DNA from: Rhodocyclaceae bacterium
GTDB lineage: Bacteria; Pseudomonadota; Gammaproteobacteria; Burkholderiales; Rhodocyclaceae
Direction: 5' to 3'
Length of the DNA: 51,855 nucleotides
Assembly (NCBI GenBank): GCA_013426785.1
Contig: JACDZI010000014.1
Location: 1 to 51,855 of the forward strand
Under the pieces are notes generated by a model. The model ran no database searches. It saw only the letters and a program-made list of their open reading frames with translations, and had not been told where the DNA came from. The position numbers and the translations under genes were made by a program. Of this stretch, positions 3,394 to 51,801 are shown piece after piece; the first letter of the stretch is position 1, and each line of letters opens with the position of its first letter.

Positions 3394-3418
3394 GCCGTCC
3401 TGCCAGCGCCGACCTTTT
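3394..3418 (-). repeat. 24-bp dispersed element, copy 1 (downstream of phaC)
   Basis: On the minus strand it reads AAAAGGTCGGCGCTGGC, then AGGACGGC, with one extra G relative to the consensus. It starts about 17 nt after the phaC stop and has the same orientation as phaC. GGCGC and the following GCGCC can pair, giving a short GC stem. Confidence 0.85.
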
Positions 3419-3434
3419 CCGTTCAAACCCTGCC

Positions 3435-5168
3435 TCAAGATTCCAGCACGTAGGTACCAGGCGCATCTGCCAGTACCGGATAAGCCTTGCTGGCTATAAC
3501 CGGCGGCTTGCCCATCTCACCGGATTGGGGCTTTAGCCAAGCCATCCAGTCCTCCCACCAGCTACCGGCGTGATGCTGAGCACGTTCCTTCCATTCATCG
3601 GCGCTGTCATGGCGCTCGGCATGGCTCACCCAGTACTCGCGCTTGGGCGGATTCACGACCGGATTGATGATCCCGAGAATGTGTCCGGAACTCGACAATA
3701 CATAACGCTTCGATCCGGCTGCAAAGTTATTGAGCCGGAAAGTCTGTTTCCAGGGGGCAATGTGATCATCCGCCGCAGCCACCGAATAGAGCGGCTGGAC
3801 GATACTGGACAGGTCGATCAGCTGACCGGCGATTTCTAGCGCATCCTTCTTGATCAGCTTGTTGTCAAGATACAAGTTGCGCAGGTACCAAGTGTGCATC
3901 CGGGCCGGCATGCGCGTGGTATCCATATTCCAGAATAAAACGTCAAACGGTGGAGGCGTTTCACCATAGAGGTATCCATGCACGACGTAATGCCAGATCA
4001 GGCTGTTGGAACGCAGCAGGCGAAACGCGGAGGCCATTTCCTTGCCGTCGAGAAAGCCCTTTTCCTCCATCTTGCGTGACAGGAAATGAAAGCTGCCTTC
4101 ATCAAGAAAAACTTCGATGTCACCCGGCTTGTGGTAGTCGACCAGAGTGGTGAAAAAGGTGGCGCTCGCCACCGGCACGTCCTTCGCAGCATGCTGACGG
4201 TTGGCCCAAGCCAGATAAGTCGCCAGCGCTGCACCGCCGATACAGTAACCGGCCATATGGATCTTCGGGCTCTTCGATATGCTGCACACGGTCTCCACAG
4301 CGGCCGCGACGCCATCGACGATATAGTCATCGAAGCCTACCTCGGCCATCGATGCGTCAGGGTTCTTCCAACTCGTTATATAGACGTCGAAACCCTGATC
4401 GAGCAGGAACTTGATCATGCTCTTCTTGGGCGTCAAGTCGAGAATGTAGAACTTGTTGATCCAAGGCGTGACGATCAGGATCGGGGTGCGATAGACCTGC
4501 GTCGCCGTCGGAGTGTAGTGGATGACTTCCAGTAGCAGGTTTTGCATCACCACCTTGCCCGGTGTGCTGGCAAGATTGACGCCAACCTTAAAGTCGTCGG
4601 GCCGCGTCATGCGGATATTGCCAGCCTGCATGTCGTCGATGAAGTTGCGCATTCCGCGGGCCAGGCTCTCGCCATTGGATTCTACGGCCTTTTGCATCGC
4701 CACCGGATTCGTCAGCAGGAAGTTCGTCGGCGCCATGGCATTAAGCCACTTCCGCCACCAGAACGCGGCGCGCCGTCGATCGCGACTGCAAAGACCAGGT
4801 GTGCGAAACAGCATGTCCTGGACATGGTGGGTCATCAGCAGGTACCACTCCTTGGTGATGTCCCAAGTCGCGGAATCATGCCAGATCGAATCGACGAAGC
4901 GATTGTCGTCAGGGTTGGGGGATTCGACGTCGTCGGCCTCAACGCCAAACATGCGCTGCCAGGATTGCCATTGCAAAGCCATCATGTGCGTGGAGTATTC
5001 GGCAGCGGCCTCGGCGAGTTCCTGCGGATGCGCCACCCAAGCCAACTGGGCATGCATCAGAGGCATCACGACCCCGAGCGGATCTAGATTGGCCTCGATC
5101 ACCTCATGCATCGCCTGAAAATTGCGGTGCGGAGACATCGCAGCTGCCATTTGTTTGCTCGTTGCCAT
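3435..5168 (-). CDS. phaC: Class I poly(3-hydroxyalkanoate) synthase
   Basis: PHA synthase polymerises 3-hydroxyacyl-CoA into storage polyester at the granule surface. The 577-residue protein has the full class I length, an N-terminal PhaC domain, then an alpha/beta-hydrolase fold with the lipase-like box GYCIGG carrying the catalytic Cys, and late Asp and His regions (AAADDHIAPW, SSSGHILGIINP). I chose the ATG at 5166-5168 because a GGAGAG Shine-Dalgarno sequence precedes it; a start 21 nt upstream is open but less well placed. The gene is divergent from uspA, with an FNR-type box between them. No phaA or phaB lies beside it. Confidence 0.93.
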   Translation of the reverse strand: MATSKQMAAAMSPHRNFQAMHEVIEANLDPLGVVMPLMHAQLAWVAHPQELAEAAAEYSTHMMALQWQSWQRMFGVEADDVESPNPDDNRFVDSIWHDSATWDITKEWYLLMTHHVQDMLFRTPGLCSRDRRRAAFWWRKWLNAMAPTNFLLTNPVAMQKAVESNGESLARGMRNFIDDMQAGNIRMTRPDDFKVGVNLASTPGKVVMQNLLLEVIHYTPTATQVYRTPILIVTPWINKFYILDLTPKKSMIKFLLDQGFDVYITSWKNPDASMAEVGFDDYIVDGVAAAVETVCSISKSPKIHMAGYCIGGAALATYLAWANRQHAAKDVPVASATFFTTLVDYHKPGDIEVFLDEGSFHFLSRKMEEKGFLDGKEMASAFRLLRSNSLIWHYVVHGYLYGETPPPFDVLFWNMDTTRMPARMHTWYLRNLYLDNKLIKKDALEIAGQLIDLSSIVQPLYSVAAADDHIAPWKQTFRLNNFAAGSKRYVLSSSGHILGIINPVVNPPKREYWVSHAERHDSADEWKERAQHHAGSWWEDWMAWLKPQSGEMGKPPVIASKAYPVLADAPGTYVLES

Positions 5169-5293
5169 ATCCACTCTCCTCGGCGGCACGCATCGCCCCG
5201 TGGACTTTGCGTGCCTTGGAATAGCGTACGCGCCAGCATCAAACCCAAGCGGGGGAATGCGCTATGATTCTGGCAAGGTTGGCGCGCTTCGTG

Positions 5294-5307
5294 TTGATCT
5301 GTGTCAA
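5294..5307. promoter_or_regulatory. FNR/ANR-type box between phaC and uspA
   Basis: TTGATCTGTGTCAA fits TTGAT-N4-ATCAA at 9 of 10 positions. It lies in the 184-bp divergent region between phaC (start 5168) and uspA (start 5353) and could serve either gene. At a class II spacing to phaC, transcription would start near 5259. Confidence 0.6.
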
Positions 5308-5352
5308 TCCCTACAGAACCGGCCGACACAAGAAAGGAAAGCGAGGTAACTC

Positions 5353-5796
5353 ATGTTCAAACATATTCTGGTACCCACAGACGGATCGCCGCTCTCGATG
5401 GAAACCGTCAAGCGGGCCGTCAGCTTTTCCAGTGAGGCTGGCGCACGCATTACCTTCTTCTATGCAAAGCCAGAGTATCCTGTAGCCTTCTATGGTGAAG
5501 GGGCTCTCATCGACCCAACCACGCCTGAGATGTTTGCAGAAATGGCGGAACAGCAGGCACAGGAAATCATTGCCAACTGCGAAGAAATCGCCAAAGCAGC
5601 CAATGTCCCTTGCGGCCATCGAACTTCGACCAGCGACATCCCCTACGAAGCCATCATCGAGGCAGCCGGATCTACCGGGTGCGATCTGATCTTTATGGCA
5701 TCGCACGGCAGGCGCGGTATTAGTGGCTTGTTACTTGGCTCCGAAACCCAGAAAGTGCTGACGCACTCCAAGATTCCCGTCCTAGTCTATCGTTAG
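5353..5796 (+). CDS. Universal stress protein, UspA family
   Basis: The 147-residue protein begins MFKHILVPTDGS and ends with the ATP-binding pattern GRRGISGLLLGSETQKVL, G-2x-G-9x-G-S/T type, so it is an ATP-binding Usp rather than an inert one. An SD (GAGG) lies before the ATG. Seven nt downstream is a hemerythrin-like gene, probably in the same operon, and an FNR-type box lies about 50 bp upstream. This fits the family's known role in oxygen limitation and growth arrest. The specific target is unknown. Confidence 0.88.
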   Translation: MFKHILVPTDGSPLSMETVKRAVSFSSEAGARITFFYAKPEYPVAFYGEGALIDPTTPEMFAEMAEQQAQEIIANCEEIAKAANVPCGHRTSTSDIPYEAIIEAAGSTGCDLIFMASHGRRGISGLLLGSETQKVLTHSKIPVLVYR

Positions 5797-5803
5797 GATT
5801 CCA

Positions 5804-12532: not shown

Positions 12533-14974
12533 TCAAGTCGCTTTCTGCAGGCGCAGGGCATTCAGCACCACCAACAGCGAACTGGCCGACATGCCGATGC
12601 CGGCCATCCACGGCGTCACCCAACCGACCATAGCCAAGGGAATGGCGATGACATTGTAAGCGAAGGCCCATGCCAGGTTCTGCCGAATGATCCCCAGCGC
12701 CCGCCGCGCCAGCAAGATGCCAGAGGCCAGGTGCGTCAGATCGTCCGACAGCAGAACCACGTCGGCCTGGCCACGGGCCAGGTCGGTGCCACCGCCCATC
12801 GCCACCGAAACGTGCGCCTGCGCCAGCACTGGAGCATCGTTGACGCCATCGCCCACCATCGCCACGGTCTGTCCTTGGGTCTGAAGAGCCTGCAAGTAGG
12901 CGCGCTTGCTTTCGGGAGTCATCCCCCCCTGGTAATCATTCACATCGACTTCCCGAGCGACCGCCGCCACCGTCTGCGCCGCATCGCCAGAGAGGATAGT
13001 CAGTTTGAGGCCCTGGGCGCGCAACTGGCCAAGGGCTGCGGCCACGCCGGGACGTACGGCGTCCGCAATGCGAAACCAAGCCCGCCAACCGTGGCTATCC
13101 CCCATAGCCACGACCGTATCGCCGGCCGCCAGCCATGTCTTCATTTCGTCTGGCAACCCAGCACTGTGCAACTCGGCCACGAAAGTTGGCGCACCGATGC
13201 GCACCGGCTGATCACCCTGCCGGGCCTCCATGCCCTGCCCGGTTATGGCCTTGAGCCCGCTCACTTTCGCCGTCTCGCCAGCGCCGACTTTTTGCAGCAG
13301 CGCTTGGCCAAGCGGGTGCTCACTCGCCTGTTCGAGCGCGCGAACCTCGGCAAAGATTGCTGCCTCGTCAGCGCCGGGTGCGCATTGCCAATCAACAACC
13401 GTCGGACGTCCCATGGTCAACGTACCTGTCTTGTCGAAGACCCAGTGATCCGCCTTGGCCAGCGTTTCGATCGCATGGCCGCGCGTGACCAGCACGCCCT
13501 CGCGTGCCAGGGCTCCGGTGGCTACCGTCAACGCCGCCGGCGTCGCCAAAGACAGGGCGCAGGGGCAACTCACCACCAGCACGGCAACGAAGACCCACAG
13601 GGTACGGTCAGGATCGACATTCAGCCAATAGATCGCTGTCACAGCCGCCAGCAGCAGCAACACCCCGACGAAGCGCATCGCGATGCGGTCGGCCAACTGC
13701 ACCAGTTTCGGCTTTTCGGCGGCGGCTTGCTCCATCAGCCGCCGGATCGAGGCCAGCCGGGTCGCCTCGCCCACGCGCGCCAATCTCACCACCAGCGGGC
13801 TGGCGATATTCACGCTGCCGCCGGTCACCCTGCTCCCCAAGTGCTTCGTGACCGGCCGACTCTCACCGGTGAGCAGCGATTCATCGCTGCTGCTTTCGCC
13901 GTCGATCACCTCCCCATCGCCCGGAATCACCTCACCCGGCCTCACCCGGACCAGATTTCCTGCCGCCAGATCCGCGACAGCAACCCGTTCACCCTCACCC
14001 TGGAACGGCCACTCCGGCAGGCGTTCGGCAAAGGCCGGCAGCGCCCTGGCCAATGCCTCGACCCCGCGCGCCGCCTTCTGGCGCGCCATCATTTCCAGAT
14101 AACGCCCCCCCAGCAGGAAGAATACGAACATCGTCACCGAGTCGAAATACACCTCGCCCGCTGCGGTCAGCGTCGCCCAGACGCTGGCGAGGAAGGCGCT
14201 GCCCACCCCCAGCGCCACCGGCACATCCATGCCGACACGCCTGAACTTGAGGTCGCGCAAAGCATTGTTAAAAAAGGGCGCAGCCGAATAGGCGATCACC
14301 GGCATGGTCAGGAGCAAGCTCGCCCAGCGCATCAGCTGCTCGATGTCCGGCGTCATGTCGTCATCGGCCAGATAGACCGGCACGGCATACATCATCACCT
14401 GCATCATGCCGAAGCCGGCAACGAACAACCGCCATTGCGCCGTGCGCCGCTCTTTCTGCGCCAGTTGTTCGGAGCGGGTAATATCGTAGGGATGCGCGCG
14501 ATAGCCGATGGCCTGTACCGCTTCGAGAATGGCCGAGAGCTTGGTCTGGTTCTCGTCCCAGCGCACGCGGGCGCGGCGCGTGGCGTAGTTGATGTCCACC
14601 GCCGTCACCCCCGGCTGGCGAGCCAGATGCGCCTCGTTAAGCCAGACGCAGGCCGCGCAGGTGATGCCTTCGAGGATCAGCGCCGCCTCGCGCTCGTGGT
14701 CGCCGACCGGACGCACGAAGTTCTTCTGTACTTCCGGGTGATCGAATAAGCCAAGTTCCTGCAGCGCCTGGGGGATCGCCTCGCGGGGCGAATTCGGCAA
14801 GGCGTCGCGGTGGCGGTAGTAATCGGTCAGATTATTGGTGACGATGGCCTGCGCCACCGCCTGGCAGCCAGCACAGCACATCGGGCGCGGACTGCCATCG
14901 ATCTCGACCGGAAGGTCAAGACCCTGCGGCACCGGCAAGCCGCAGTGGTAGCAATCCGAACCGCAGTGGGGCAC
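12533..14974 (-). CDS. ccoI: CcoI/FixI copper-transporting P-type ATPase
   Basis: The 813-residue P1B ATPase exports copper needed for cbb3 assembly. It has an N-terminal Cys-rich region ([15 protein letters not shown]), a heavy-metal domain with ITCAACVW near residue 105, membrane helices, the CPC motif [12 protein letters not shown], phosphorylation site DKTGTLTMG near residue 511, and [10 protein letters not shown] near residue 715. The N-terminal extension and ccoS directly downstream favour CcoI over CopA. The nucleotide-binding domain carries the peptide KVGAGETA (residues 561-568) encoded by a dispersed 24-bp element. The gene stops the SDR gene by only 4 bp. Confidence 0.9.
13269..13293 (-). 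repeat. 24-bp dispersed element, copy 2 (inside ccoI)
   Basis: On the coding strand it reads AAAAAGTCGGCGCTGGC, then GAGACGGC, and is translated in frame as KVGAGETA between LGQALLQ and [12 protein letters not shown]. The site is a linker in the ATP-binding domain just before the conserved ITGQG region. Confidence 0.9.
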
Positions 14975-15828: not shown

Positions 15829-15904
<76 letters not shown>

Positions 15905-17496: not shown

Positions 17497-19749
17497 TTAG
17501 CCGAAGCCCTTCATGGGCGAGGGGCCGAGCTTGTCGAGTTCGGCGACGTAGTCGTTGATCATCCTGACCACGCGGGCGTTGTCGGTGATCGCCACTTCCT
17601 CGGTCTGCACGCGCTCGGGCTCCAGGCCCAACTGCTTCAGCGTGTCGCCGATCTTGCTCATGCGATAGAAGGCCATTTCCGAGCCCTTGACGAAGTGGCA
17701 CTGGTAGTCATCGCCGCGCTTGCAGCCCATCATCATCACGCCGTCGTAGCCGGAGTTGAGCGCGTCGGTGATCCAGATGGTATTGACCGAACCGAGGCAG
17801 CGCACGGGAATCACCCGCACGAAGGCCGAGTAGGACATGCGTTGCAGGCCGGCCATATCGAGCGCCGGATAGGCGTCGTTTTCGCAGGCGAGGATCAGAA
17901 TGCGCGGCTTCTCCTCGAACTCGTCCGGCACATTGACGGCCTTGACCTGCATGCCGACAGTGTCGCAACTGTAGTTCTCGAAGGAGATCACACGTACCGG
18001 GCAGGCGCCCATGCAGGTGCCGCAACGGCGGCAGCGTTCCTCGTTGAATACCGGGAAGCGCTTCTCGTCCTCGTCAATGGCGCCGAAGGGACATTCGACC
18101 GTGCAGCGTTTGCACTGCGTACAGCCTTCGAGGCGGGCGCTGGGGAAGCTCAAGTCCCCGGCGCGCGGATGGGCAGCGCGGCCCTTCTCGACGTTCTCGA
18201 CCGCCTGGATCGCCTTCAGGGCAGCTCCGGTGGCGTCCTCGGTCGCCTGGAACAGGTCCATCGGCCGGCGCGTCGGGCCGGCGGCGTAGATGCCGGTACG
18301 GCGCGTCTCATAGGGGAAACAGATGAAGTGCGAGTCCGCGAAACCATACTTGAACTGCGGCACGTCCGGGCCCTGACGATAGTTCAGGTTGAGCACCGAG
18401 ATCTTCTGCAGTTCGCTCTTCTTCTCGGCGGCGGCGGCATCGCCGCTCTCCGCCGCGGTCACGGTGGCCGTCCATTCGTCGAGATTGACGCCGGCGTTTG
18501 GCACCTGGCCAGTGGCCAGCACGACCAGGTCAGCCGTCGTGGAGGTGACTTCGTCGAGGATCAGGTCCGCAAACTCGACCTGGCACTCGTCGCCACCGGT
18601 AACTTTGCTGGCTTTGCCCTTGGTGAAGATCACGCCCTTCTGCTGGGCACTGCGGTAGAAGTCCTCGCCCATGCCCGGCACGCGCAGGTCCTGGTACATC
18701 ACCACCGTATCGATGTCGGGGTTCTGGTCCTTGAAGTACATCGCCTGCTTGATGCTGGTGCCACAGCAGTGGCCGGAACAGTAAGGCAGGTGCATACCTG
18801 TGTCATCGCGCTGGCCGGCGCACTGGACGAAGACGACGCTCTTCACTTCTTTGCCGTCGGCGCGCAGGATGGCGCCGCCGTTGGCCTGCTTGGCCAAGGC
18901 TTCCAGACCGGCCTGATCGACCACGTTGGGCTGGCCGCCACCGAGTTCCGGCAGCTTGTCGAGCGGGTAGGTGCTGAAACCGGTCGCTTGCACGATGGCG
19001 CCGCAGGTTTCCTCAGTGATGCTGCCCGACTCCGCCGCAATCTTGACGGCAAAGCGGCCGGGGGCGCCGGCAGTCTCGGTGACGGTGGAATTGAGATAAA
19101 CCTTGATCTTCGGGTTGGCCTGCACCTGCGCCGCCGTCTCGCCAGCGCCGACTTTTTGCGGTTCGGCGTAGGCGCCGCTGAAGGGCACGCGCTTGTGGAG
19201 CCTGGCCGCGAAACCGCCGAGTGCGCCGGTCTTCTCGACCAGCACCACGGCGTAGCCGGCATCGGCCGCAGCGAGCGCCGCCGTCATGCCGGACATGCCG
19301 CCACCGACGACGAGGATGGTCTTGCTCGACGCTTCCTTGACCTTGCCGGCGGGCGACTTCATCTTCTTGACTTCGGCGCAGCCCATGCGGATGTAATCCT
19401 CGGCCATTTCCTGGCGGACTTCATCGTGGTCGCTGCCCTCGGCGACCACCCAGATCACGCCTTCGCGCAGGTTGGCGCGCGACATGGCCACGTCCGGAAA
19501 CTGGAAGGCCTCGGCCTTGGCGCGGCGCGAACAGGCGGCGATGCAGATGTGGGTAACGCCGTCGTTGGCGATGTCGTCGCGGATCATCTGCACGCCCTCG
19601 GCGTTACAGAGGAATTCGTGCGATTTGGCGACGGCCATCTTGCCCTCTTTCAGGGCGATCTTTTCCAGCGACTTGACATCGAGCACATCGCCAATGCCGC
19701 AACCAGAGCAGACATAGGCGGCGTATTTTGGAGTAGCGGGGGCGTTCAT
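17497..19749 (-). CDS. qmoB: QmoB, HdrA-like flavoprotein with MvhD domain
   Basis: The 750-residue protein has an N-terminal Cys region (YVCSGCGIGD, CIAACSRRAK), an FAD domain with ILVVGGGMSGMTAAL near residue 145, ferredoxin motifs CTQCKRCTVECP and CRRCGTCMGACP near residues 550-590, and a C-terminal MvhD-like domain with ILACENDAYPALDMAG, IPVRCLGSVN and MMGCKRGDDYQC. QmoB couples APS reductase to the quinone pool in sulfur metabolism. The FAD region contains KVGAGETA (residues 198-205), encoded by a 24-bp dispersed element. ATGA overlap with qmoA. Confidence 0.92.
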   Translation of the reverse strand: MNAPATPKYAAYVCSGCGIGDVLDVKSLEKIALKEGKMAVAKSHEFLCNAEGVQMIRDDIANDGVTHICIAACSRRAKAEAFQFPDVAMSRANLREGVIWVVAEGSDHDEVRQEMAEDYIRMGCAEVKKMKSPAGKVKEASSKTILVVGGGMSGMTAALAAADAGYAVVLVEKTGALGGFAARLHKRVPFSGAYAEPQKVGAGETAAQVQANPKIKVYLNSTVTETAGAPGRFAVKIAAESGSITEETCGAIVQATGFSTYPLDKLPELGGGQPNVVDQAGLEALAKQANGGAILRADGKEVKSVVFVQCAGQRDDTGMHLPYCSGHCCGTSIKQAMYFKDQNPDIDTVVMYQDLRVPGMGEDFYRSAQQKGVIFTKGKASKVTGGDECQVEFADLILDEVTSTTADLVVLATGQVPNAGVNLDEWTATVTAAESGDAAAAEKKSELQKISVLNLNYRQGPDVPQFKYGFADSHFICFPYETRRTGIYAAGPTRRPMDLFQATEDATGAALKAIQAVENVEKGRAAHPRAGDLSFPSARLEGCTQCKRCTVECPFGAIDEDEKRFPVFNEERCRRCGTCMGACPVRVISFENYSCDTVGMQVKAVNVPDEFEEKPRILILACENDAYPALDMAGLQRMSYSAFVRVIPVRCLGSVNTIWITDALNSGYDGVMMMGCKRGDDYQCHFVKGSEMAFYRMSKIGDTLKQLGLEPERVQTEEVAITDNARVVRMINDYVAELDKLGPSPMKGFG
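19133..19157 (-). repeat. 24-bp dispersed element, copy 3 (inside qmoB)
   Basis: On the coding strand it reads AAAAAGTCGGCGCTGGC, then GAGACGGC, in frame as KVGAGETA between AYAEPQ and AQVQANPKIKV. The position is a loop before a beta strand of the FAD domain. Confidence 0.9.
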
Positions 19750-21035
19750 ATTGCGGCCTCCGTAGCTGCGGTTTTATGGATCACCTGAATGGCTTTCAAG
19801 GAAGCGGCAGTGGCGCTTTGCACCGCGCGGTTGACGTCCAGCGGGCTGGCGGCGCTGCCGGCACCGAACATGCCGCCACTCTTCGAGCCTTCGATGAAGT
19901 TCGATGAATCGAGCAGGATGTCGTCGGGCAACTTCACACCAGTCACCTCCGGCTCCATGCCGACGGCCAGCACCACCAGGTCATGCTCAGTCGCGTAGCG
20001 CTGGTAACCCTCGGTATCGACGCCATGCAGGACCGGATTGCCGTTCTGGTCGTTCTCGGCGATGCGCGCAACCTTCGACTTGACGAAGCTGACGGTCGGG
20101 TCCTTCTGCACGTTCTGGTAAAAATCTTCGAAGCGGTCGATGGCGCGGATGTCAATGTAGTAAACGGTGGATTTACCCTCGTCGCCGAGGGCTTCGCGTA
20201 CGTACTGGGTCTGCTTGAGCGTGGCCATGCAGCAGATGCGCGAACAGTGGCGCAGATGGTTTTCGTCGCGCGAACCGGCGCACTGGATGAAGGCGATGTT
20301 CTTTGCCTCTTTTCCATCGCCCGGACGCAGCAGTTTGCCGCCGGTCGGGCCGCGCGGATCGGCCAGGCGCTCGAATTCCAGGCTGGTGATCACGTTGGCG
20401 TAGCGGTCGTAGCCGTAAGGCTGGATCTTGTTGGCATCGTAGGGACGCCAGCCGGTCGCCCAGACCACGCTGCCGACCTTGAGTTCGACAGTTTCTTCCT
20501 GCATGCCGAGATCGACCGCGCCCACCTTGCAGGCCGCCTTGGCCTTTTCGCCCTCGGGCGTGCCGACGATGGAAGGATCGATCACATAGCGCTGCGGGTA
20601 GGCCATGCCGTGCGGCAGGTAGGCTGCCTTGGTCTTGTCCAGCCCGTAGTTGGCGACGTTCGGCACCTCGGCCGCCACCGCCTTGCCGCAATCGCCGCAA
20701 GCGGTGCAGTTTTCATTGACGTAGCGCGGCCGGATCTTCAGCGTCACGCTGTAATCGCCGCGACTGCCGGAGACGGCCGCCACTTCGGTCATCGTCATCA
20801 CGCGCACATTCGGGTTGCCGCGGATGCGCTTCAGGTTGATCTCCAGCCCGCAGGTGGGGTGGCACATCTTGGGGAAGTAGCGATACAGCAGGGATGTGCG
20901 GCCGCCCAGCGTGGGCGTCTTTTCCGCGAGGATTACCTGCTTGCCGCACTCGGCCGCTTCGAGGGCCGCCGTCATGCCGGCGATACCGCCGCCGACGACC
21001 AGAATGGTCTGGTTGGTTGCGATTGAAGCCGTCAT
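19746..21035 (-). CDS. qmoA: QmoA, HdrA-like flavoprotein
   Basis: The 429-residue protein binds FAD (TILVVGGGIAGMTAALEAA near residue 11) and has HdrA-type cysteines: FPKMCHPTCGLE, NENCTACGDCGKA and FIQCAGSRDENHLRHCSRICC. QmoA is the partner of QmoB in the quinone-interacting membrane-bound oxidoreductase. I chose the ATG at 21033-21035 (MTASIATNQ) because a GGAGG sequence lies just upstream. It starts the four-gene operon. aprBA, the usual partner genes, are absent here and may lie elsewhere. Confidence 0.93.
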   Translation of the reverse strand: MTASIATNQTILVVGGGIAGMTAALEAAECGKQVILAEKTPTLGGRTSLLYRYFPKMCHPTCGLEINLKRIRGNPNVRVMTMTEVAAVSGSRGDYSVTLKIRPRYVNENCTACGDCGKAVAAEVPNVANYGLDKTKAAYLPHGMAYPQRYVIDPSIVGTPEGEKAKAACKVGAVDLGMQEETVELKVGSVVWATGWRPYDANKIQPYGYDRYANVITSLEFERLADPRGPTGGKLLRPGDGKEAKNIAFIQCAGSRDENHLRHCSRICCMATLKQTQYVREALGDEGKSTVYYIDIRAIDRFEDFYQNVQKDPTVSFVKSKVARIAENDQNGNPVLHGVDTEGYQRYATEHDLVVLAVGMEPEVTGVKLPDDILLDSSNFIEGSKSGGMFGAGSAASPLDVNRAVQSATAASLKAIQVIHKTAATEAAI

Positions 21036-21161: not shown

Positions 21162-22181
21162 TTATTGCCGTCCCGCCAGCGCCCGATTCACCATGTCGTT
21201 GACAGCAGAACCCATGTTCATGGGCATCAGTTCGATTTGTGGGTGAGCATTGGCGAAGACGCGGAACACCTCGTCAGCGAATGCCTGGCCAATCGATTCA
21301 ACACCTGCGAAGTCAAGCATGACCGTCTTGAATCGCTCAAACCGCATCGTCAGGCGTTTCGCCTGGGAACGTGAAACAAGCTTCTCGCCTTCGTGCTGCG
21401 CGAGTTTGACGGGAACGACCGTTCGATCAAAGGTAAATTCGTCCGGCGCGGCAAACTTGTAAAAGATTTCGTTGGTCGTGCGCGTGCTGTCGTTGGCCAG
21501 CTTCATGACGACCAAGGTGCCCGGCGTATCCTTGGGGCGCTCCAGCAGGAAGTCCAGCATCCCTTCGCCGTGCATGAAATACAGGTTTCCTGACCGGATA
21601 TCAAAGCCGTCGAACATCTTCGAGGAAAAGAAGATGCCCTCGCCGGTATGGTTGGCGGGATCGGTGGTCAGCTTGCCTTTGGCCAGTTCCAGAATCGATT
21701 CGCGCGGATCGAACAATCCCAGCGCCCGCTGGATCTTCAGGAAGATACCTTCCCCATCATCGAACAACCATCCCTCGGTATGGATGGCGGTACGCCGAAT
21801 GCCTACGCTCACGTTCGCGCCGCCCGAGTGATCAATCGCGTTGTTGATCATCTCGGTCATGCCGTATTGCCAGATGTCCCGGACATTAGCCGGCAGGTCT
21901 TTCACGATTGCCGCGCAGACTTCCCGCCATGCGACATCTTCGGAGAGTCCTGCGCGCAGATAAGCTTTTACGGCTTTTTGCTTGATCGCCAGGCGGTATG
22001 TCTTGCCTTTGGTGGCGCCTTCCTCTTCCAGATCGCCATCCTTCACCATTTGCGACAAATGGCGGCTGACGCTCTGGCGAGTGATCCCGAATTCCGCACC
22101 CAATAGGGTGCCGATGCCTTTGACGCCGGCACCGGCCAGGAATAGTGCGCGCTTCCTTAACCCCTTTTTGTCAGCTTTCAT
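21162..22181 (-). CDS. wHTH-ATPase-STAS-like regulatory protein
   Basis: The 339-residue protein combines an N-terminal winged helix (residues 10-65, GITRQSVSRHLSQMVKDGDL), a GHKL-type ATPase domain with EMINNAIDHSGG (N box, about 110), DDGEGI (about 141) and GEGIFFSSKMFDGF (about 180), and a C-terminal STAS-like DUF4325 segment (about 260-339, VMLDFAGVESIGQAFADEVFRVF). This suggests a single-protein switch where ATPase state controls DNA binding or a partner. The last residues, ALAGRQ, come from a degenerate 24-bp element. The target is unknown. Confidence 0.75.
   Translation of the reverse strand: MKADKKGLRKRALFLAGAGVKGIGTLLGAEFGITRQSVSRHLSQMVKDGDLEEEGATKGKTYRLAIKQKAVKAYLRAGLSEDVAWREVCAAIVKDLPANVRDIWQYGMTEMINNAIDHSGGANVSVGIRRTAIHTEGWLFDDGEGIFLKIQRALGLFDPRESILELAKGKLTTDPANHTGEGIFFSSKMFDGFDIRSGNLYFMHGEGMLDFLLERPKDTPGTLVVMKLANDSTRTTNEIFYKFAAPDEFTFDRTVVPVKLAQHEGEKLVSRSQAKRLTMRFERFKTVMLDFAGVESIGQAFADEVFRVFANAHPQIELMPMNMGSAVNDMVNRALAGRQ
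21167..21188 (-). repeat. Degenerate 24-bp element, copy 4 (3' end of regulator gene)
   Basis: On the minus strand the last 16 bases, GCGCTGGCGGGACGGC, match the element exactly, but the first part reads AATCGG instead of AAAGTCG. It encodes the C-terminal ALAGR of the wHTH-ATPase protein. The stop TAA follows after two more codons at most. The same reading frame occurs at the pepA C-terminus. Confidence 0.6.
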
Positions 22182-30350: not shown

Positions 30351-30374
30351 AAAAGTCGGCGCCGGCAGGACGGC
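30351..30374 (+). repeat. 24-bp dispersed element, copy 8 (after tusA)
   Basis: AAAAGTCGGCGCCGGC, then AGGACGGC, starting 2 nt past the tusA stop and in tusA orientation. Its end forms part of the terminator stem that follows. Confidence 0.9.
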
Positions 30375-33480: not shown

Positions 33481-36284
33481 CCGAGCCGTGCCAACTGGCT
33501 GGCGAGCTTTTCGCGCAATGCGTTGAAGCCGGCCAGCCGCTCGCGCTCCTGCGCCACTACGGCGGCCGGGGCACGGGCGACGAAGCTCTCGGTAGCGAGC
33601 TTTTTTTCCGCCTTCTCGATCTCCCCGACCACGCGCGCGAGTTCCTTGCCGAGGCGTTCCTTCTCGGCGGCGACGTCGATCTCGATCTTTAGCATCAGGC
33701 GGAAATCGCCGACGATCTGCACTGGCGCATCCGTGTCGGGCAGGGTATCCGCCGCGCTGACTTCGGAGAGCTTGGCCAGGGCCGCCAGATAGGGGGCGTA
33801 GCCCTGCATGGCTGCGGTATCTCCTGCGGCAATCAGCGGCACGCGCTGGGCCGGGGACAGGTTCATCTCGCCGCGCAGGCTGCGGGTCGCCGTAACCAGC
33901 GACTTGAGAATAGCGACCCAGGCGTCGGCGGAGGCGTCCTGCCGCGCCGGTTCGGCGACCGGGTAGGCGTGCAGCATGATGGTTTGCGCCGTCTCGCCAG
34001 CGCCGATTTTTTTCCCCGCCAAGGGTGCAATGGGCTGCCACAACTCTTCGGTGATGAAGGGGATCAGCGGATGGGCGAGGCGCAGCACGGTTTCCAGCAC
34101 CCTCACCAAGGTAAGACGCGTCGCCCGCTGGGCAGCCTCGTTACCCCCTTGAATCTGCACTTTCGCCAGTTCGAGATACCAGTCACAGTATTCGTCCCAG
34201 ACGAACTCGTAGATCGCCTTGGCCAGCAGGTCGAAACGGTAATCGGCGAAGTGCTTCGCCACCTCGGCTTCGACCTGTTGCAGGCGGCTGACGATCCAGC
34301 GGTCGGCCGGCGAGCGCTCCAGCGGCAGGATTTCGTCGAGGCCGACATCCTGGCCCGCGCAGTTCATCAGCACGAAGCGCGTGGCGTTCCACAGCTTGTT
34401 GCAGAAATTGCGGTAACCCTCGCAGCGCTGCATGTCGAACTTGATGTCGCGGCCGGGCGAGGCGAGCGACAGGAAGGTGAAGCGCAGCGCATCGGTGCCG
34501 AAGGCAGGGATGCCGTTCGGGTATTCCTTGCGGGTGCGCTTTTCGATCTTCGGCGCATCCTTCGGGTTCATCAGGCCGGTGGTGCGCTTGGCAACCAGAT
34601 CATCGAGCGAAATGCCGTCGATCAGGTCAATCGGGTCGAGTACGTTGCCCTTCGATTTCGACATCTTCTGGCCTTCCGCGTCGCGGATCAGGCCATGTAC
34701 GTAAACGTCCTTGAACGGGATCTTGCCGGTGATGTGCTTGGTCATCATCACCATGCGCGCCACCCAGAAGAAAATGATGTCGAAGCCGGTGACCAGCACC
34801 GTCGAAGGCAGGTAGAGGTCCAGCGCGGGATTCGACTTGGCCGGCCACTCTGGCGTCCAGTCAAGCGTCGAAAACGGCCACAGCGCCGAGGAATACCAGG
34901 TGTCGAGCACGTCGGGGTCACGCGCCAGCCCGCCCGTGTAGCCGTCGCGTTTCGCCATTGCATAGGCTTCCGCTTCGTCGTGGGCGACATAGAAGCGGCC
35001 ATCATCCGAGTACCAGGCGGGAATCTGGTGGCCCCACCACAACTGCCGCGAGATGCACCAGTCCTGGATGTTGTTGAGCCACTGGTTGTAGGTGTTCACC
35101 CAGTTTTCGGGCACGAAGCGGATCTCGCCGGAGCGCACACACTCCAGCGCCTGGCCGGCGATGGATTTTCCGTTTGCACCGGGTTTCGACATGGCGACAA
35201 ACCATTGGTCGGTCAGCATCGGCTCGATGACGGCATCGGTACGATCGCCGCGCGGCACCATCAGCTTGTGGGGCTTGACCGAAACCAGCAGGTCTGCTGC
35301 TTCAAGATCTGCGACGATCTGCTTGCGGGCCGCATAGCGATCCATGCCGCGATACGCCTCCGGTCCATGCTCGTTGATGCGCGCATCGAGGGTGAAGATC
35401 GAGATCGGTGCCAAGCCGTGGCGGTGGCCGACCTGCCAGTCGTTGAAGTCATGTGCCGGGGTGATCTTGACGCAGCCGGTGCCGAACTCCCTGTCGACAT
35501 AGCCGTCCGCGATCACCGGGATGGTCCGGTCGCAGAGCGGCAGATGGAGTTGCTTGCCGATCAGGTGGGCGTATCGTTCATCTTCTGGATTGACGGCGAC
35601 AGCGACGTCGCCAAGCATCGTCTCGGGGCGTGTCGTTGCCACGGTGAGCGAACCATTCCCGCAGGCAAACGGGTAGTTGATCTCCCACATGAAGCCGTCT
35701 TCCTCTTCGCTGACCACTTCGAGGTCGGAAACCGCCGTGAGCAGCTTCGGGTCCCAATTCACCAGTCGCTTGCCGCGGTAGATCAGGCCTTCCTTGTGCA
35801 GGCGGACGAAGGTTTCGGTGACGATCCTCGACAGCCCGGCATCCATGGTGAAGCGCTCGCGCGACCAGTCCGGGCTGGTGCCGAGCCGGCGCATCTGGCG
35901 GGTGATGGTATTGCCGGAATACTCTTTCCACTCCCAGACCTTCTCGAGGAACTGCTCGCGGCCGAGGTCGTGGCGCGAAATGCCCTGTCCGTCCAATTGG
36001 CGTTCGACAACGATCTGCGTGGCGATGCCGGCGTGGTCGGTGCCGGGCTGCCACAGGGTGTTGGCGCCGCGCATCCGGTGATAGCGCGTCAGCGCATCCA
36101 TGATTGCCTGATTGAAACCGTGGCCCATGTGCAGTGTGCCCGTCACATTGGGTGGCGGCAGCAGGATGCAGAAATTGTCATCTTTCGAAGTGTCGAGACC
36201 GGCGGCGAAGTAGCCGTTCGATTCCCAGACGGGGTACCAGCGCCGCTCGATTTCAGCGGGCTCGAAGCTTTTGGCGAGTTCCAT
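33477..36284 (-). CDS. valS: Valyl-tRNA synthetase
   Basis: The 935-residue class I synthetase has the HIGH-type motif [15 protein letters not shown] near residue 44, an editing domain, [12 protein letters not shown] near 540, and the C-terminal coiled coil. Length fits bacterial ValRS. In the anticodon-binding domain, [20 protein letters not shown] (residues 758-765) contains a 24-bp element peptide just before the conserved IML-x-x-YP segment; other ValRS have a shorter loop there. It charges tRNA-Val with valine and is convergent with the DUF302-like gene. Confidence 0.97.
33988..34013 (-). repeat. 24-bp dispersed element, copy 9 (inside valS)
   Basis: On the coding strand a run of A, ATCGGCGCTGGC, then GAGACGGC, translated in frame as KIGAGETA. 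It differs from the consensus by GTC to ATC at the second codon. Confidence 0.88.
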
Positions 36285-37103: not shown

Positions 37104-38615
37104 TCAGTGCCGTCCCGCCAGCGCCGACTTTTCTGCCCTAGCCAACAGGAAATGCATCAGCAGCGGCACCGGCCGGCCGGTCGAGCCCTTGTCCTTGCCG
37201 CTCTTGTTGGCGGTGCCGGCAATGTCAAGGTGGGCCCAGTCGTATTTCTTGGTGAAGCGCGACAGGAAGCAGGCCGCCGTAATGGTGCCGGCAGCGCGGC
37301 CGCCGATGTTGCCCATGTCGGCGAAATTGCTCTGCAACAGTTCCTGATAGTCTTCCAGCAGCGGCATTTGCCAGGCACGGTCCCAGCTGGCATTGCCGGC
37401 ATCGAGCAGTTCGCGCGCCAGTCCGTCGTCGTTGGCGAGCAGGCCGCTGACGACGTGGCCCAGCGCGATCACGCAGGCGCCGGTGAGCGTGGCGACATCG
37501 ACGACGCAGGCCGGGTCGAAGCGCTCGACGTAGGTCAATGCATCGCAGAGGATTAGCCGGCCTTCGGCGTCGGTATTGAGGATCTCGATGGTCTGGCCCG
37601 ACAGCGAGGTGACGATGTCGCCGGGGCGCGTTGCCGCACCGCCCGGCATGTTCTCGACGGTCGGCACGACCGCGATGACATTGAGCGGCAGCTTGAGCTG
37701 CGCGGCGGCCTTGACGGTAGCCAGCACGCTGGCGGCGCCGGACATGTCGTACTTCATTTCGTCCATGTCGGGCGCCGGCTTGAGCGAGATGCCGCCGGTG
37801 TCGAAGGTGACGCCCTTGCCAACCAGCACGATGGGCTTGTCGTCCGCCGTACCGCCCAGGTACTTGAGCACGATGAACTGCGGCGGCTGGTGCGAACCGC
37901 GAGCCACCGCCAGCAGCGAATGCATGCCCAGTTGTTCCATCTCGGTCCGGCCGAGGATGTCCACCGATAACTCATGTTCGCGGGCCAGTTCGCGCGCCTG
38001 GTCGGCCAGGTAGGTCGGCGTGCAGATGTTGCCGGGCAGGTTGGCGAGGTTCTTCATCAGGTTCATGCCGCCGGCGATGGCCTGGCCTTCCTGCAGGGCC
38101 TGTTCGGCCGCCGCCAACTCGTTACGACGCTCGACACACAGGGTCAGCTTGCGCAGGGGGCGGCGTACCTCGTCCTTCTTCGACTTCAACTGATCGAAAC
38201 GGTAGAGCGTTTCTTGAATGACGATCACGGCCTGGCGGATGCGCCAGGCGAAATCGCGTTTCTTGACCGGCAGTTCGGTCAGGGTGAGCGTGCCGTCGAA
38301 CCCGCCGGTCTCGTTGAGGGTACGCACCGCCGTGGCGATCGCAGCCCGGTATTCCTTTTCGCGGAATTCCTTTTCCTTGCCCAGCCCGACCAGCAGCACG
38401 CGATCGGCCTCGATGCCCGGCACCTTGTGCAGCAAGAGGGTATTGCCTGCCTTGCCTTCCATGTCGCCGCGGCGCAGGAGTTCGGCGAGGTAACCCTCCG
38501 CGGCGTTGTCGATCAGTTCGGCTGGCAAGGACAGCTTGCGGGATTCGAAGACGCCGACGACGACGCAGGCGCTGCGCTGCTTTTCCGGGCTACCGCTCTT
38601 TATGTTAAATTCCAC
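37104..38615 (-). CDS. pepA: Leucyl aminopeptidase
   Basis: The 503-residue M17 family peptidase cleaves N-terminal amino acids using two metal ions. The signature NTDAEGRLILCDALTY near residue 345 and the VGKGVTFDTGGISLKPAPDMDEMK region carry metal ligands. I chose the GTG at 38613-38615 with AGGAG about 7 nt upstream; an ATG 42 nt earlier has no SD. The last 8 residues (KSALAGRH) are encoded by a 24-bp element, replacing the usual ending. Divergent from lptF by 107 bp. Confidence 0.93.
   Translation of the reverse strand: MEFNIKSGSPEKQRSACVVVGVFESRKLSLPAELIDNAAEGYLAELLRRGDMEGKAGNTLLLHKVPGIEADRVLLVGLGKEKEFREKEYRAAIATAVRTLNETGGFDGTLTLTELPVKKRDFAWRIRQAVIVIQETLYRFDQLKSKKDEVRRPLRKLTLCVERRNELAAAEQALQEGQAIAGGMNLMKNLANLPGNICTPTYLADQARELAREHELSVDILGRTEMEQLGMHSLLAVARGSHQPPQFIVLKYLGGTADDKPIVLVGKGVTFDTGGISLKPAPDMDEMKYDMSGAASVLATVKAAAQLKLPLNVIAVVPTVENMPGGAATRPGDIVTSLSGQTIEILNTDAEGRLILCDALTYVERFDPACVVDVATLTGACVIALGHVVSGLLANDDGLARELLDAGNASWDRAWQMPLLEDYQELLQSNFADMGNIGGRAAGTITAACFLSRFTKKYDWAHLDIAGTANKSGKDKGSTGRPVPLLMHFLLARAEKSALAGRH
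37109..37132 (-). repeat. 24-bp dispersed element, copy 10 (3' end of pepA)
   Basis: On the coding strand AAAAGTCGGCGCTGGC, then GGGACGGC, read in the frame KSALAGR, a different frame from the internal copies. The stop TGA follows two bases later after one His codon. Confidence 0.9.
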
Positions 38616-40881: not shown

Positions 40882-41472
40882 TTCTGGGGATGGTGGGGGG
40901 CCCGGAGTGGTAGCCGATTTGGGCACCAGCGTGCTCTGTGGAGTCTTGAGAGGGGATAACGGCGACTTGGCCGTCTGGTCCGCAGATGATTTGGTCAGTG
41001 CCTTCGGTGTTTTCGGCGCTGGCTGACGTTTCGGCGCGCGCGCCTTCAACTGGTCGCGCTCATCCTCGGAGAGGGCCTGGTATTCCTCCCATTTCAGCTT
41101 GACGCTCTGCCGTTGCTCGGGCGTGACCTTTTTCAGGGTCTTGTACTTCTCCCGGACGACCTTGCGCTCTTCCGGTGCCAGACGCGCCCAGTCCCGCATG
41201 TTGCGCTGCATGCTGGCCTGCTCGGCGGGTGTCATGCCGGGATAGCGTTGCGCGATGCCCAGCCATTTCTTGCGGTGGAAAGCATCCATCGTCGCCCAGT
41301 CGTCGGATAGCGGCGCCAGAATGGTTTTCTGCCCGGGCGTCAGCGCAGCCCAGCCCGGTTGCTCGAACTGGGGCAGCACGGGCTGGGGCAAGGCCGCCAG
41401 CACCATCCCCGACGCAGCCCCGAGGCTGAGGCCGAGGGCTAGTCCCCAGACGGCGAGTCTTGTTCCAGCCAT
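40852..41472 (-). CDS. DUF3106 protein
   Basis: The 206-residue protein has a signal-like N-terminus (residues 5-27), then repeated helical units LTPGQKTILAPLSDDWATMD, LGIAQRYPGMTPAEQASM, WARLAPEERKVVREKYKTLK and VTPEQRQSVKLKWEEYQALSEDE, typical of DUF3106, and a Pro/Ser-rich tail. It is probably periplasmic. The start overlaps DUF3619 by 34 bp and the 3' end overlaps lptG. Repeats of this sort resemble periplasmic stress sensors such as Spy/CpxP or anti-sigma regulators, which is only an inference. Confidence 0.8.
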   Translation of the reverse strand: MAGTRLAVWGLALGLSLGAASGMVLAALPQPVLPQFEQPGWAALTPGQKTILAPLSDDWATMDAFHRKKWLGIAQRYPGMTPAEQASMQRNMRDWARLAPEERKVVREKYKTLKKVTPEQRQSVKLKWEEYQALSEDERDQLKARAPKRQPAPKTPKALTKSSADQTAKSPLSPLKTPQSTLVPKSATTPGPPPSPESPPLDPPQH

Positions 41473-41831
41473 GCCTGAAAACCTTTGTCAAGGTAAGCAT
41501 TGGGCGGCAGGTCGTCGGCCAGCAGGGCGCTATCGATTTCCTCGTTTTCACTGGCCTGGCTGAAACCATTCCAGACATAGGTCAAGCCGACCCCGATCAG
41601 CAATGCCAGAATGACCAGCAGCATGCGTAACGGGTGTCGCTCATCGTCCCCACCCAAGGTCGCCGTCCCGCCGGCGCCGATTTTTACGGAAGATGCCAGC
41701 ACGGCCCGCTGTTGCAGCAAGGCCCGCTCGCGTGCAGCACGCAGGCGTTCGGCAATGCCGTGGTCGAGCTGATTCGTGCCGTCATCAAGGACGCGGCACA
41801 ACTGGCGGGCAAATCGGTCCTCTTGACTCAT
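41439..41831 (-). CDS. DUF3619 membrane protein, possible anti-sigma
   Basis: The 130-residue protein has a cytoplasmic N-terminal part (DRFARQLCRVLDDGTNQLDHGIAERLRAARERAL), one TM helix (about 68-88) and an acidic periplasmic end. The context between an ECF sigma factor and a DUF3106 protein, with overlaps on both sides, fits an anti-sigma-like role, but this is unproven. Residues 50-57 are KIGAGGTA from a 24-bp element, between the cytoplasmic helices and the membrane helix. Confidence 0.78.
   Translation of the reverse strand: MSQEDRFARQLCRVLDDGTNQLDHGIAERLRAARERALLQQRAVLASSVKIGAGGTATLGGDDERHPLRMLLVILALLIGVGLTYVWNGFSQASENEEIDSALLADDLPPNAYLDKGFQAWLEQDSPSGD
41662..41685 (-). repeat. 24-bp dispersed element, copy 11 (inside DUF3619 gene)
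   Basis: On the coding strand AAAAATCGGCGCCGGC, then GGGACGGC, in frame as KIGAGGTA. It has GGG where the other internal copies have GAG. Confidence 0.85.
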
Positions 41832-46749: not shown

Positions 46750-48288
46750 ATGAGCAAAAACCAATTGTTGATTTTCGATACCACCTTGCGTGACGGCGAG
46801 CAAAGCCCCGGCGCGGCCATGACGCGCGAAGAGAAGCTGCGTATTGCCCGCCAGCTCGAAAAGATGCGCGTCGACATCATCGAAGCCGGCTTCGCCGCAG
46901 CCAGCCCCGGCGATTTCGCGGCGATCCATTCGATCGCCGAGGCGATCAAGGATTCCGCCGTCTGCTCGCTGGCCCGCGCCAATGAAAATGACGTGCGCCG
47001 CGCCGGCGAAGCCATCAAGCCAGCAGCGCGTGGCCGGATTCATACGTTTATCGCCACCTCGCCCATCCACATGGAGAAGAAGCTGCGCATGCACCCGGAC
47101 GATGTGGTCGCTGCAGCCGTCAAGGCCGTCAAACTGGCCCGCGAATACACCGACGATGTCGAGTTCTCGGCCGAGGACGCGGTGCGTTCGAATTTCGACT
47201 TCCTCTGCCGCATCTTCGATGCCGTGATCCAGGCCGGCGCCACTACCATCAACGTGCCGGACACCGTCGGTTACAGCATTCCGGTGCAGTGGGGCGAGCG
47301 TATGCGGGCGCTGATCGAACACGTACCGAATTCGGACCGGGTGATCTGGTCCACCCACTGCCACAACGACCTCGGCCTCGCGGTGGCCAACTCGCTGGCC
47401 GCAGTATTGAATGGCGCACGGCAGGTGGAGTGCACCATCAACGGCCTCGGCGAGCGGGCCGGCAATGCCGCAGTCGAGGAAATCGTCATGGCGGTGCGTA
47501 CCCGCAAGGATCTCTTTCCCGTCGAGACACGCATCGACGCGACGCAGATCGTGCCGGCTTCCCGCCTCGTTTCGCAGATCACCGGCTATGTCGTGCAGCC
47601 GAACAAGGCCATTGTCGGCGCCAACGCCTTCGCCCACGAATCCGGCATCCATCAGGACGGCGTGCTCAAGCACCGCGAAACCTACGAGATCATGCGTGCC
47701 GAAGATGTGGGCTGGCACGCCAACAAGCTCTCGCTCGGCAAGCTTTCCGGCCGCAACGCCTTTCGGACCAAACTGGCCGAACTCGGCATCGAGCTGGCCA
47801 GCGAAGAGATCCTCAACACCGCCTTCGCCCGTTTCAAGGAACTGGCCGACAAGAAGCGCGAGATCTTCGACGAGGACCTCCAGGCGCTGGTGTCCGAGGA
47901 AATGGTCACGCCCGAAGTCGAGCACTACAAGCTGGTCGCGTCGAAATTCCACTCGGAAACCGGCGAATTGCCCCGCGCCGAATTGACCCTGTCACTCGGT
48001 GGTGCCGAACAACGGGCCGAATCCACCGGCAGCGGTCCGGTCGATGCCACCTTCAAGGCCATCGAAAGTGTCGCCGGCAGCGGTTCCGACCTGCTGCTCT
48101 TCTCCGTCAATGCCATCACCACCGGCACCGATGCGCAGGGCGAAGTGACCGTGCGCCTGGCGAAGGCAGGGCGCATCGTCAACGGCCAGGGCGCCGACAC
48201 CGACATCATCGTGGCGTCGGCCAAAGCCTACCTGAACGCATTGAACAAGCTGCACGCCGGTCCCGAGCGGGTCAATCCCCAGCTTTGA
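46750..48288 (+). CDS. leuA: 2-isopropylmalate synthase
   Basis: The 512-residue enzyme joins acetyl-CoA to 2-ketoisovalerate, the first leucine-specific step. It has the N-terminal [19 protein letters not shown] metal/substrate motif, the HxH motif in [18 protein letters not shown], and the C-terminal LeuA regulatory dimer domain (about 390-512) that binds leucine. GGAGACG precedes the ATG. Confidence 0.96.
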
Positions 48289-48303: not shown

Positions 48304-48327
48304 AAAAGTCGGCTCCGGCAGCACGGC
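48304..48327 (+). repeat. 24-bp dispersed element, copy 12 (between leuA and yihY)
   Basis: AAAAGTCGGCTCCGGC, then AGCACGGC, 15 nt after the leuA stop and ending 1 nt before the YihY-type start codon. It is more diverged than the others. It occupies the region where a ribosome site would be. Confidence 0.8.
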
Positions 48328-50000: not shown

Positions 50001-50004
50001 GGCG

Positions 50005-51201: not shown

Positions 51202-51216
51202 GTTTCCCCCGTCGTC

Positions 51217-51249
51217 AAAAATAAGCCCCGGCACAATCCGGGGCTTATT
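51217..51249. terminator. Bidirectional terminator between rplS and DUF2442 gene
   Basis: AATAAGCCCCGG (51220-51231) pairs perfectly with CCGGGGCTTATT (51238-51249) across a 6-nt loop. On the minus strand it is followed by a T-run (plus-strand AAAA before the stem), and on the plus strand by TTATTC. It serves both rplS and the convergent DUF2442 gene. Confidence 0.85.
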
Positions 51250-51260
51250 CGTTGACGGAT

Positions 51261-51284
51261 GCCGTCCTGCCGGAGCCGACTTTT
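51261..51284 (-). repeat. 24-bp dispersed element, copy 13 (at DUF2442 stop)
   Basis: On the minus strand AAAAGTCGGCTCCGGC, then AGGACGGC. Its first two A are the last bases of the TAA stop of the DUF2442 gene. With copy 14 it forms a direct pair around the DUF4160-DUF2442 genes. Confidence 0.85.
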
Positions 51285-51552
51285 ACGCTGGAAGCTGGCT
51301 CATCAATGGAAAGTTCTCGGGATGGCGGATCGAATCGACGGCCAAATCGACATCGAGTTCGGGCCAGTAGAGATGATTGTCCGAAGGCAACTCCACGTGC
51401 AAAATCTTGCCAACAGCTACATCGCGAAACCACGGAAATTCGGCAAATGGCAGGAACAACTCCTCATCTCGCAAGAGAATCCAAAAGCCATGCTTCGAGA
51501 TATGCGTAACTTCAACCGCCGAAGTGTCTGTGCCAAGCGCTGCGGATGTCAT
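51283..51552 (-). CDS. DUF2442 protein, second gene of DUF4160-DUF2442 pair
   Basis: The 89-residue protein starts MTSAALGTDTSAVEVTHISKHGFWILLRDEELFLPFAEFPWFRDVAVGK-like, a DUF2442 pattern with the LYWPELDVDLAVDSIRHPENFPL end. AGGAG lies 7 nt before the ATG. It overlaps the upstream DUF4160 gene by 41 bp. Such pairs are thought to be toxin-antitoxin-like, with no confirmed activity here. Confidence 0.75.
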   Translation of the reverse strand: MTSAALGTDTSAVEVTHISKHGFWILLRDEELFLPFAEFPWFRDVAVGKILHVELPSDNHLYWPELDVDLAVDSIRHPENFPLMSQLPA

Positions 51553-51751
51553 TTTCGTGCTCCTGCACCAGTTGTTGAGCTTCGCTGATTTCTCGGCGCG
51601 ACAAGCCTGTTTGCTGTGCCAATGCAATCACGGGTTCGAGCCAGAATTTCGCTTCGCCATCGGGCGACTGCACATGGACGTGCATCCGCGGCTCTTCACG
51701 TGAGAAGAAATAGAACCTGAACTTTCCTGAACGAAAGAGGGTAGGACTCAT
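51512..51751 (-). CDS. DUF4160 protein
   Basis: The 79-residue protein has SPTLFRSGKFRFYFFSREEPRMHVHVQSPDGEAKFWLEPVIALAQQTGLS, the full DUF4160 pattern including the C-terminal helix missing from the fused copy at 22343. It overlaps the DUF2442 gene by 41 bp and is presumably translated with it. Confidence 0.78.
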   Translation of the reverse strand: MSPTLFRSGKFRFYFFSREEPRMHVHVQSPDGEAKFWLEPVIALAQQTGLSRREISEAQQLVQEHENDIRSAWHRHFGG

Positions 51752-51777
51752 AGCGAGTAATTGTAGCTTCGATTGCC

Positions 51778-51801
51778 GCCGTCCCGCCAGCGCCGACTTT
51801 T
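51778..51801 (-). repeat. 24-bp dispersed element, copy 14 (upstream of DUF4160)
   Basis: On the minus strand AAAAGTCGGCGCTGGC, then GGGACGGC. It lies 26 bp upstream of the DUF4160 start, and TAA overlaps its beginning, as at a stop codon; whether a gene ends there cannot be seen within the window. Confidence 0.88.

Follow-up and report, generated by a model that had tools for sequence, protein, structure and literature searches.

A 24-bp dispersed element of the Rhodocyclaceae as a putative DNA uptake sequence

The stretch of DNA analysed here, hereafter the window, comprises the 51,855 nucleotides of contig JACDZI010000014.1 from the assembly GCA_013426785.1 of a Rhodocyclaceae bacterium (genome G000; 3.24 Mb in 241 contigs). 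An earlier note, made from the letters alone, had described a short element in it, dispersed in 13 copies plus one degenerate copy. Searching the window for the pattern AAAAGTCGGCGCTGGCRRGACGGC (R) with up to three mismatches returned 13 copies, where 0.00 were expected (no matches in 100 dinucleotide shuffles). These and the degenerate copy were confirmed at the positions claimed for them, with the copy placed at 28152 corrected to 28153–28176. Exact copies on the reverse strand lie within a copper P-type ATPase gene of the same strand (13269–13292, frame KVGAGETA), within an HdrA-like gene (19133–19156; gene 17497–19749, reverse), at the 3′ end of a leucyl aminopeptidase gene (37109–37132), across the end of a gene at 24320–24838 (reverse) with a 2-base overlap (24298–24321), between genes (22254–22277) and at 51778–51801. 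The exact copy on the forward strand (28153–28176) is contained in a molybdopterin oxidoreductase-like gene (25370–28288, forward). Copies with one mismatch are found 17 bases beyond the 3′ end of a PhaC-like gene (3394–3417, reverse; gene 3435–5168, reverse), 2 bases beyond the gene at 30121–30348 (30351–30374, both forward) and in valS (33988–34011, reverse; site A), in a stretch that is absent from genomes G002, G003, G005 and G017. Two mismatches separate the pattern from the reverse-strand copies at 51261–51284 and at 41662–41685; the latter lies in a gene at 41439–41831 (reverse), and G002, G003 and G017 have an ungapped sequence with six mismatches there. The copy with three mismatches (48304–48327, forward) follows a LeuA-like gene (46750–48288, forward). 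The degenerate copy (21167–21192, reverse), at the 3′ end of a gene at 21162–22181 (reverse), contains one additional G; it exceeds three substitutions and was read directly.

The element is real, genome-wide and clade-specific, with a unit of 24–25 bp. The earlier note had named a genome-wide count no higher than composition predicts as what would overturn its claim; G000 contains 748 copies (384 forward, 364 reverse), or one per 4.3 kb, and not a single copy of the reversed control pattern. In 440 kb of this genome the classes with 0, 1, 2, 3, 4 and 5 mismatches hold 59, 34, 20, 11, 2 and 5 copies, with none at 6 and background from 7 onwards. These stretches were picked on contigs rich in listed copies, and therefore their density (one per 3.5 kb) exceeds that of the genome; part of the stretches from G001 and G011 were likewise picked where copies were listed. 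The unit consists of 24 bp and a purine at position 25, and the flanks are otherwise nearly information-free. Copy density rises with the GC content of 2-kb windows: the tenth with the least GC has 0.13 copies per kb and the tenth with the most has 0.38. The 24-mer folds no better than its shuffles (z of 0.36, 0.05, -0.04 and 0.30) and forms no hairpin. The sites in G000 carry 39.1 bits, compared with the 12.8 needed for locating them. Such an excess is not expected of sites individually maintained by selection for binding; it is expected of a sequence that is copied, either by transposition or by biased uptake together with recombination.

Between 279 and 755 copies were found in 17 of the 18 congeners of G000, with none in G005 and no match to the controls. 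Matches occur in 32 of 399 genomes of the order, and the rich ones (148 copies or more) all come from the Rhodocyclaceae. The cultured Rhodocyclaceae isolate Sulfurisoma sediminicola BSN1 contains at least one exact copy, and G001, G010 and G011 have exact 300-base stretches in common with L149, L169 and L135, respectively, which belong to MAGs named as Rhodocyclaceae. Within the family, a degenerate pattern exceeded 100 copies in 37 of 297 genomes (counted by hand from the table) from seven genera (g1, g2, g9, g47, g192, g199 and g215), with reversed controls never above 3. Genome G455 of genus g199 holds 232 copies (117 and 115 on the two strands; control 0) of the variant AAAGTCGACGCYGG....ACGG and 18 copies within two mismatches of the canonical form; the variant A stood in all 13 among the matches listed. 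We read this variant as a dialect of the element; G034 and genus g11 give weaker hints of further dialects. A valS tree with 30 rows, which leaves out G282, G448, G455 and g215, places every sampled carrier in one clade of 17 rows (support 100/99), which also contains G005 (0 copies) and G028 (4 copies). G005 clusters with G002, G003, G006 and G017 at 100/100. Being nested among carriers, it has therefore probably lost the motif, on the thin evidence of one gene tree. G639, with 17–20 copies in a rich genus, is possibly another loss.

The element also turns up in clusters in otherwise poor genomes. On G070:C3, G450:C323, G489:C1 and G533:C1, copies are clustered within about 5 to 90 kb of motif-poor genomes, as if these were segments imported from carriers, or misbinned contigs. 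A phage collection yielded 79 stretches with an exact 23-base match. With the recruiting copy excluded, they carry one copy per 11 kb, roughly a third of the density in the sampled G000, G001 and G011 stretches, and some contigs in this set may come from hosts. Locus L386 (IMGVR_UViG_3300009945_000063) carries at 629–2238 a 316-bp unit in 4.7 tandem repeats, with four copies of the element spaced 316 bp apart and a fifth 385 bp beyond. The ends of the unit resemble integron attC sites, and the repeat may be a cassette array bearing the element.

Position and orientation were analysed in samples of G000, G001, G011 and G017 (444 copies, 278 of them intragenic), using gene calls from a purpose-written script rather than a standard annotator. 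Intergenic copies number 58 of 126 in G000, 46 of 133 in G001, 17 of 71 in G017 and 45 of 114 in G011, in 14.6%, 9%, 9.9% and 11.1% of the DNA, respectively. Intragenic copies are scattered over the full length of genes. The earlier note had also reported that the element follows the orientation of the gene containing it or ending just upstream. This stands in the window, where 11 of the 12 assessable copies agree (the degenerate one included, 22254 being the sole exception and 51261 and 51778 not assessable), but it does not extend elsewhere as a general rule. Moreover, the yardstick of a gene ending just upstream counts every convergent gap as agreement. Across the four genomes, 164 intragenic copies are sense and 114 antisense, and a strong rule of gene orientation was not upheld outside the window. 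The pooled binomial P of 0.003 is optimistic, because some copies in G001 and G011 are orthologous and two of the stretches from G011 have 7 kb in common. By genome, sense and antisense copies number 40 and 28 in G000 (P 0.18), 33 and 21 in G017 (P 0.13), 45 and 42 in G001 (P 0.83) and 46 and 23 in G011 (P 0.008). The bias in reading frame is strong, at 114/39/11 on the same strand (39 being the KSALAGR-like frame) and 68/42/4 on the opposite strand.

Copies are more evenly spaced than random in G000 (coefficient of variation (CV) 0.73 against a null of 0.98; 0 of 2000) and in G001 (CV 0.81, P 0.012). Close pairs show no excess, lying at or below the null, with 13 pairs less than 150 bp apart in the sampled loci. 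The strands are used alike, as in G002 with 146 forward and 158 reverse copies. No strand bias relative to GC skew was detected in G017 (36 against 35) or in G000, G001 and G011 together (171 against 150, P 0.26), and a site oriented by replichore was rejected on these counts.

To follow gain and loss, orthologous sites were compared between G001 and G011, which are 87% identical. Both flanks were covered for 93 of 237 copies, with shared copies counted from both sides. The element was kept, that is with at most five mismatches, in 86 of the 93 comparisons. In these, its identity averages 94.0% as against 85.4% for the 60-base flanks, a contrast that is partly selected because keeping itself requires at most five mismatches. 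The seven absences are due to substitutions, to indels no longer than 13 bases, to an insert of 27 bases inside the element, or to poor alignment; no clean 24-base gap was found among them. Likewise, over eight close pairs (with copies that are partly those of the G001–G011 set), the element was kept in 74 of 81 comparisons and none of the seven absences was a clean gap. Genus-wide, 883 rows comprise 458 in register, 356 partial or shifted matches and 52 ungapped absences, in addition to the larger gaps considered below. These rows, and a further set of 695, are redundant across species, and the 695 collapse to 25 intragenic site clusters. At six of these the element is always present, at seven its absence is ungapped, four are mixed, and at eight an indel always accompanies absence, a class that includes alignment-edge effects with the motif still visible.

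Both routes, ungapped substitution and indel, can be read from the sequences of valS. At site B several species have PLIGAGDTA where G007, G009 and G015 have the element, without a gap, and in G003 the element comes with four additional residues. At site A, 10 of the 14 species covering it have 4–20 extra residues that include the element, and G002, G003, G005 and G017 are without the added stretch, whose length is not fixed.

Some copies are compound or interrupted. Genome G017 contains a 78-bp composite of a truncated, an inverted and a full element at three places in 440 kb (L044 ~18283, L054 ~1199 and L060 ~14077); judged by eye from the letters, a long hairpin is possible. At L097 of G011 (the same copy being present in the overlapping L099) and at L070 of G007 the element is split at an identical internal point by a related, palindrome-like insert of 27 bp, and sister species have the plain element.

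We consider it probable that the element is a DNA uptake sequence (DUS) outside the Neisseriaceae and Pasteurellaceae; its receptor, the uptake bias and transformation itself are inferred. Among the options that the earlier note had named, an uptake motif is the one we favour, as abundance, strand symmetry, spacing, the preference for intergenic DNA and for certain frames, retention at orthologous sites, dialects and absence from relatives fit the published profile of a DUS or of an uptake signal sequence (USS; PMC1626085, PMC2346458, PMC2397512, PMC3630211). The ungapped intermediate forms at valS site B and in the gene at 41439–41831 also speak for it. The 24–25-bp unit would act as a tag of ‘self’, recognised by a receptor that belongs to the type IV pilus or competence machinery. 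Tagged DNA would preferentially be taken up in natural transformation, and tagged fragments would replace the resident allele through homologous recombination. Biased entry together with recombination would therefore drive near-matches to the consensus and restore lost tags. In this way the tag could multiply with no need of a transposase, chiefly at places where proteins and regulatory sequences can accommodate it.

Neisseria belongs to the Betaproteobacteria, as do the Rhodocyclaceae, and its DUS is ATGCCGTCTGAA with the receptor ComP. Like that DUS, the element is present in hundreds of copies, is strand-neutral, prefers intergenic or permissive sites and is retained at orthologous positions; it too faces a near-match or a gap where it is absent, forms dialects and is missing from relatives. 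Moreover, where a copy has A at both position 18 and position 25, its complement starts with TGCCGTCT, which equals 8 bases of AT-DUS. A match of this length was reached by 0.7% of 20,000 composition shuffles and was noticed post hoc, and is taken as a lead only. As in the ComP system, G011 has a minor pilin of the ComP_DUS family. Unlike the neisserial DUS, the element measures 24–25 bp instead of 10–12, is about four times sparser, and has a receptor and an uptake that are predicted here. According to PMC3630211, a CTG core is common to all neisserial dialects. In the Rhodocyclaceae element this core, which is essential in Neisseria, reads CYY. Treangen et al. give an identity of 97% for DUS where conserved sequence averages 85%, and describe new DUS opposite a one-mismatch form or opposite unrelated sequence and gaps (PMC2397512). 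The pattern of gain and loss of our element is similar to that of neisserial DUS facing near-matches or gaps.

The Pasteurellacean USS shares with the element a very strong consensus, regular spacing, a preference for non-coding DNA and the lack of a general orientation bias. Two motif types within one family are also described for USS, whose consensus is noted as anomalously strong (PMC1626085). An origin by substitution, not insertion, has been argued for USS. Van Passel reports that uptake sequences are commoner in reading frames in one orientation (PMC2346458). Unlike the USS, which has a 9-bp core and AT tracts, the element is a 24-bp unit.

The machinery for such a system is plausible. 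ComEC was found in 18 of the 19 genomes of the genus, and the one without it is 83% complete. In G011, the first member of a group of minor-pilin genes (L097:3805–4215) matches the Pfam family ComP_DUS with 75.2 bits (cut-off 27.3), and a FimT-like minor pilin is encoded at L097:4222–4680.

Several observations weigh against an uptake sequence. The density of one copy per 4.3 kb is several-fold under the one or so per kb of DUS and USS, 24 bp is long for a single receptor, and the spacing in G011 (CV 0.81, P 0.055) is not significantly even. ComEC, GspH/FimT-type pilins and relatives of the ComP_DUS pilin (the last by tblastn in the sampled loci) also occur in motif-free genomes, such as G005 and G021, and therefore no gene tracks the motif; as receptor candidates by gene presence, all three are non-discriminating and none was picked out. 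Gaps or insertions accompany 146 of 227 comparisons scored as lacking the element, as against 129 of 5903 control windows (the rows being redundant and including some alignment-edge effects), and therefore indels as well as substitutions create or remove copies. At 67–79% identity, 17 of the 883 rows have gaps over at least 18 bases of the element: 3 gap it entirely and the other 14 gap 18 to 22 bases. By comparison with outgroups USS cores have few gaps, and PMC1626085 places gaps in only 24% of USS alignments, mostly outside the core; the sites of our element are heavily gapped.

These gaps also speak for a very small mobile repeat, inserting as a unit and moved in trans by some enzyme, an explanation that we regard as unlikely. 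The sharp ends and very strong consensus of the element would suit it, as would the eight of 25 site clusters that always have an indel when the element is absent, the extra residues at site A of valS, the composites in G017 and the split copies in G011 and G007. However, no clean gain of 24 bp is seen in either set of close comparisons, the addition at site A of valS ranges between 4 and 20 residues among species instead of a fixed 8, seven of the 25 clusters have ungapped absence only, and even spacing and a variant present genome-wide (as seen in the G455 copies among the matches listed) are unexpected for insertions. A mobile unit would be expected to show clean presence or absence as well as neutral decay, and neither is seen among close relatives. 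The small dispersed repeats of cyanobacteria have a similar length and copy number and no gene of their own, and are described as insertions. Unlike these, the element shows no clean insertion at 87% identity, and whole-element gaps are confined to the three of the wider rows. A component of mobile repeat alongside the uptake sequence is nevertheless conceivable. The repetitive extragenic palindromic (REP) sequences and their paired form (REPIN), mobilised by REP-associated tyrosine transposases (RAYT), are likewise short and numerous and favour intergenic DNA, and the earlier note had raised a REP-like element as an option. Carriers G000, G007, G009, G010, G012, G019 and G026 do have one to three matches each to the Y1 transposase family, with one in G000. 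Yet the element has neither palindrome or hairpin nor an excess of close pairs, and it needs no RAYT, the Y1 family (PF01797) being without a match in the complete genome of G017 (446 copies) and in G001, G002, G003, G004 and G011. Having failed these defining tests, REP/REPIN is very improbable; movement by an enzyme other than RAYT is conceivable.

If the element were instead bound by a protein that organises or repairs the chromosome, similar to Chi, to the FtsK-orienting polar sequences (KOPS) or to the sites of a nucleoid protein, this would account for about 750 conserved and fairly even sites at one per 4.3 kb, and the middle of the element is similar to the Chi of E. coli (GCTGGTGG). 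Both Chi and KOPS are strand-biased relative to GC skew, whereas the element shows no such bias in the genomes sampled; its 39 bits are far above the 13 required; and complete loss in the congener G005 would be odd for a function in chromosome maintenance. We hold such a site to be rather improbable, more so than a mobile repeat. An mRNA-level element, that is a terminator, a stability or a translation signal, was a further option of the earlier note and can draw on the slight excess on the sense strand and on a complement ending in TTTT. However, orientation is only weakly linked to genes (114 of the 278 intragenic copies being antisense), copies lie along entire genes, and there is no stable fold beyond that of shuffles. 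An RNA element was rejected on these grounds and is the least credible of the explanations considered.

Uptake sequences are described in two bacterial families (PMC1626085, PMC2346458). Literature searches covering open-licence papers found no earlier report of a Rhodocyclaceae uptake sequence among the papers listed, and in the same literature the letters of the element led to four plant papers, unrelated by title. We lean slightly towards natural transformation guided by sequence tags having a third lineage in the Rhodocyclaceae, with a tag twice as long as the neisserial one, 8 bp shared with DUS, and dialects and losses of its own. If the shared 8-bp stretch were ancestral, tag-based uptake of ‘self’ would be older than the split of these betaproteobacterial families. 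An independent case in environmental Betaproteobacteria, with a long tag and dialects, would carry the question of drive versus selection beyond the commensals of humans and animals. Moreover, it would predict naturally competent lineages among the uncultured, for which tagged donor DNA could offer a route to genetic tractability.

Two further features of the window lie outside the element. A tRNA-Ala with anticodon CGC is encoded at 15829–15904. At 17497–21035 an adjacent pair of HdrA-like genes probably belongs to an electron-transfer or sulfur-metabolism cluster.

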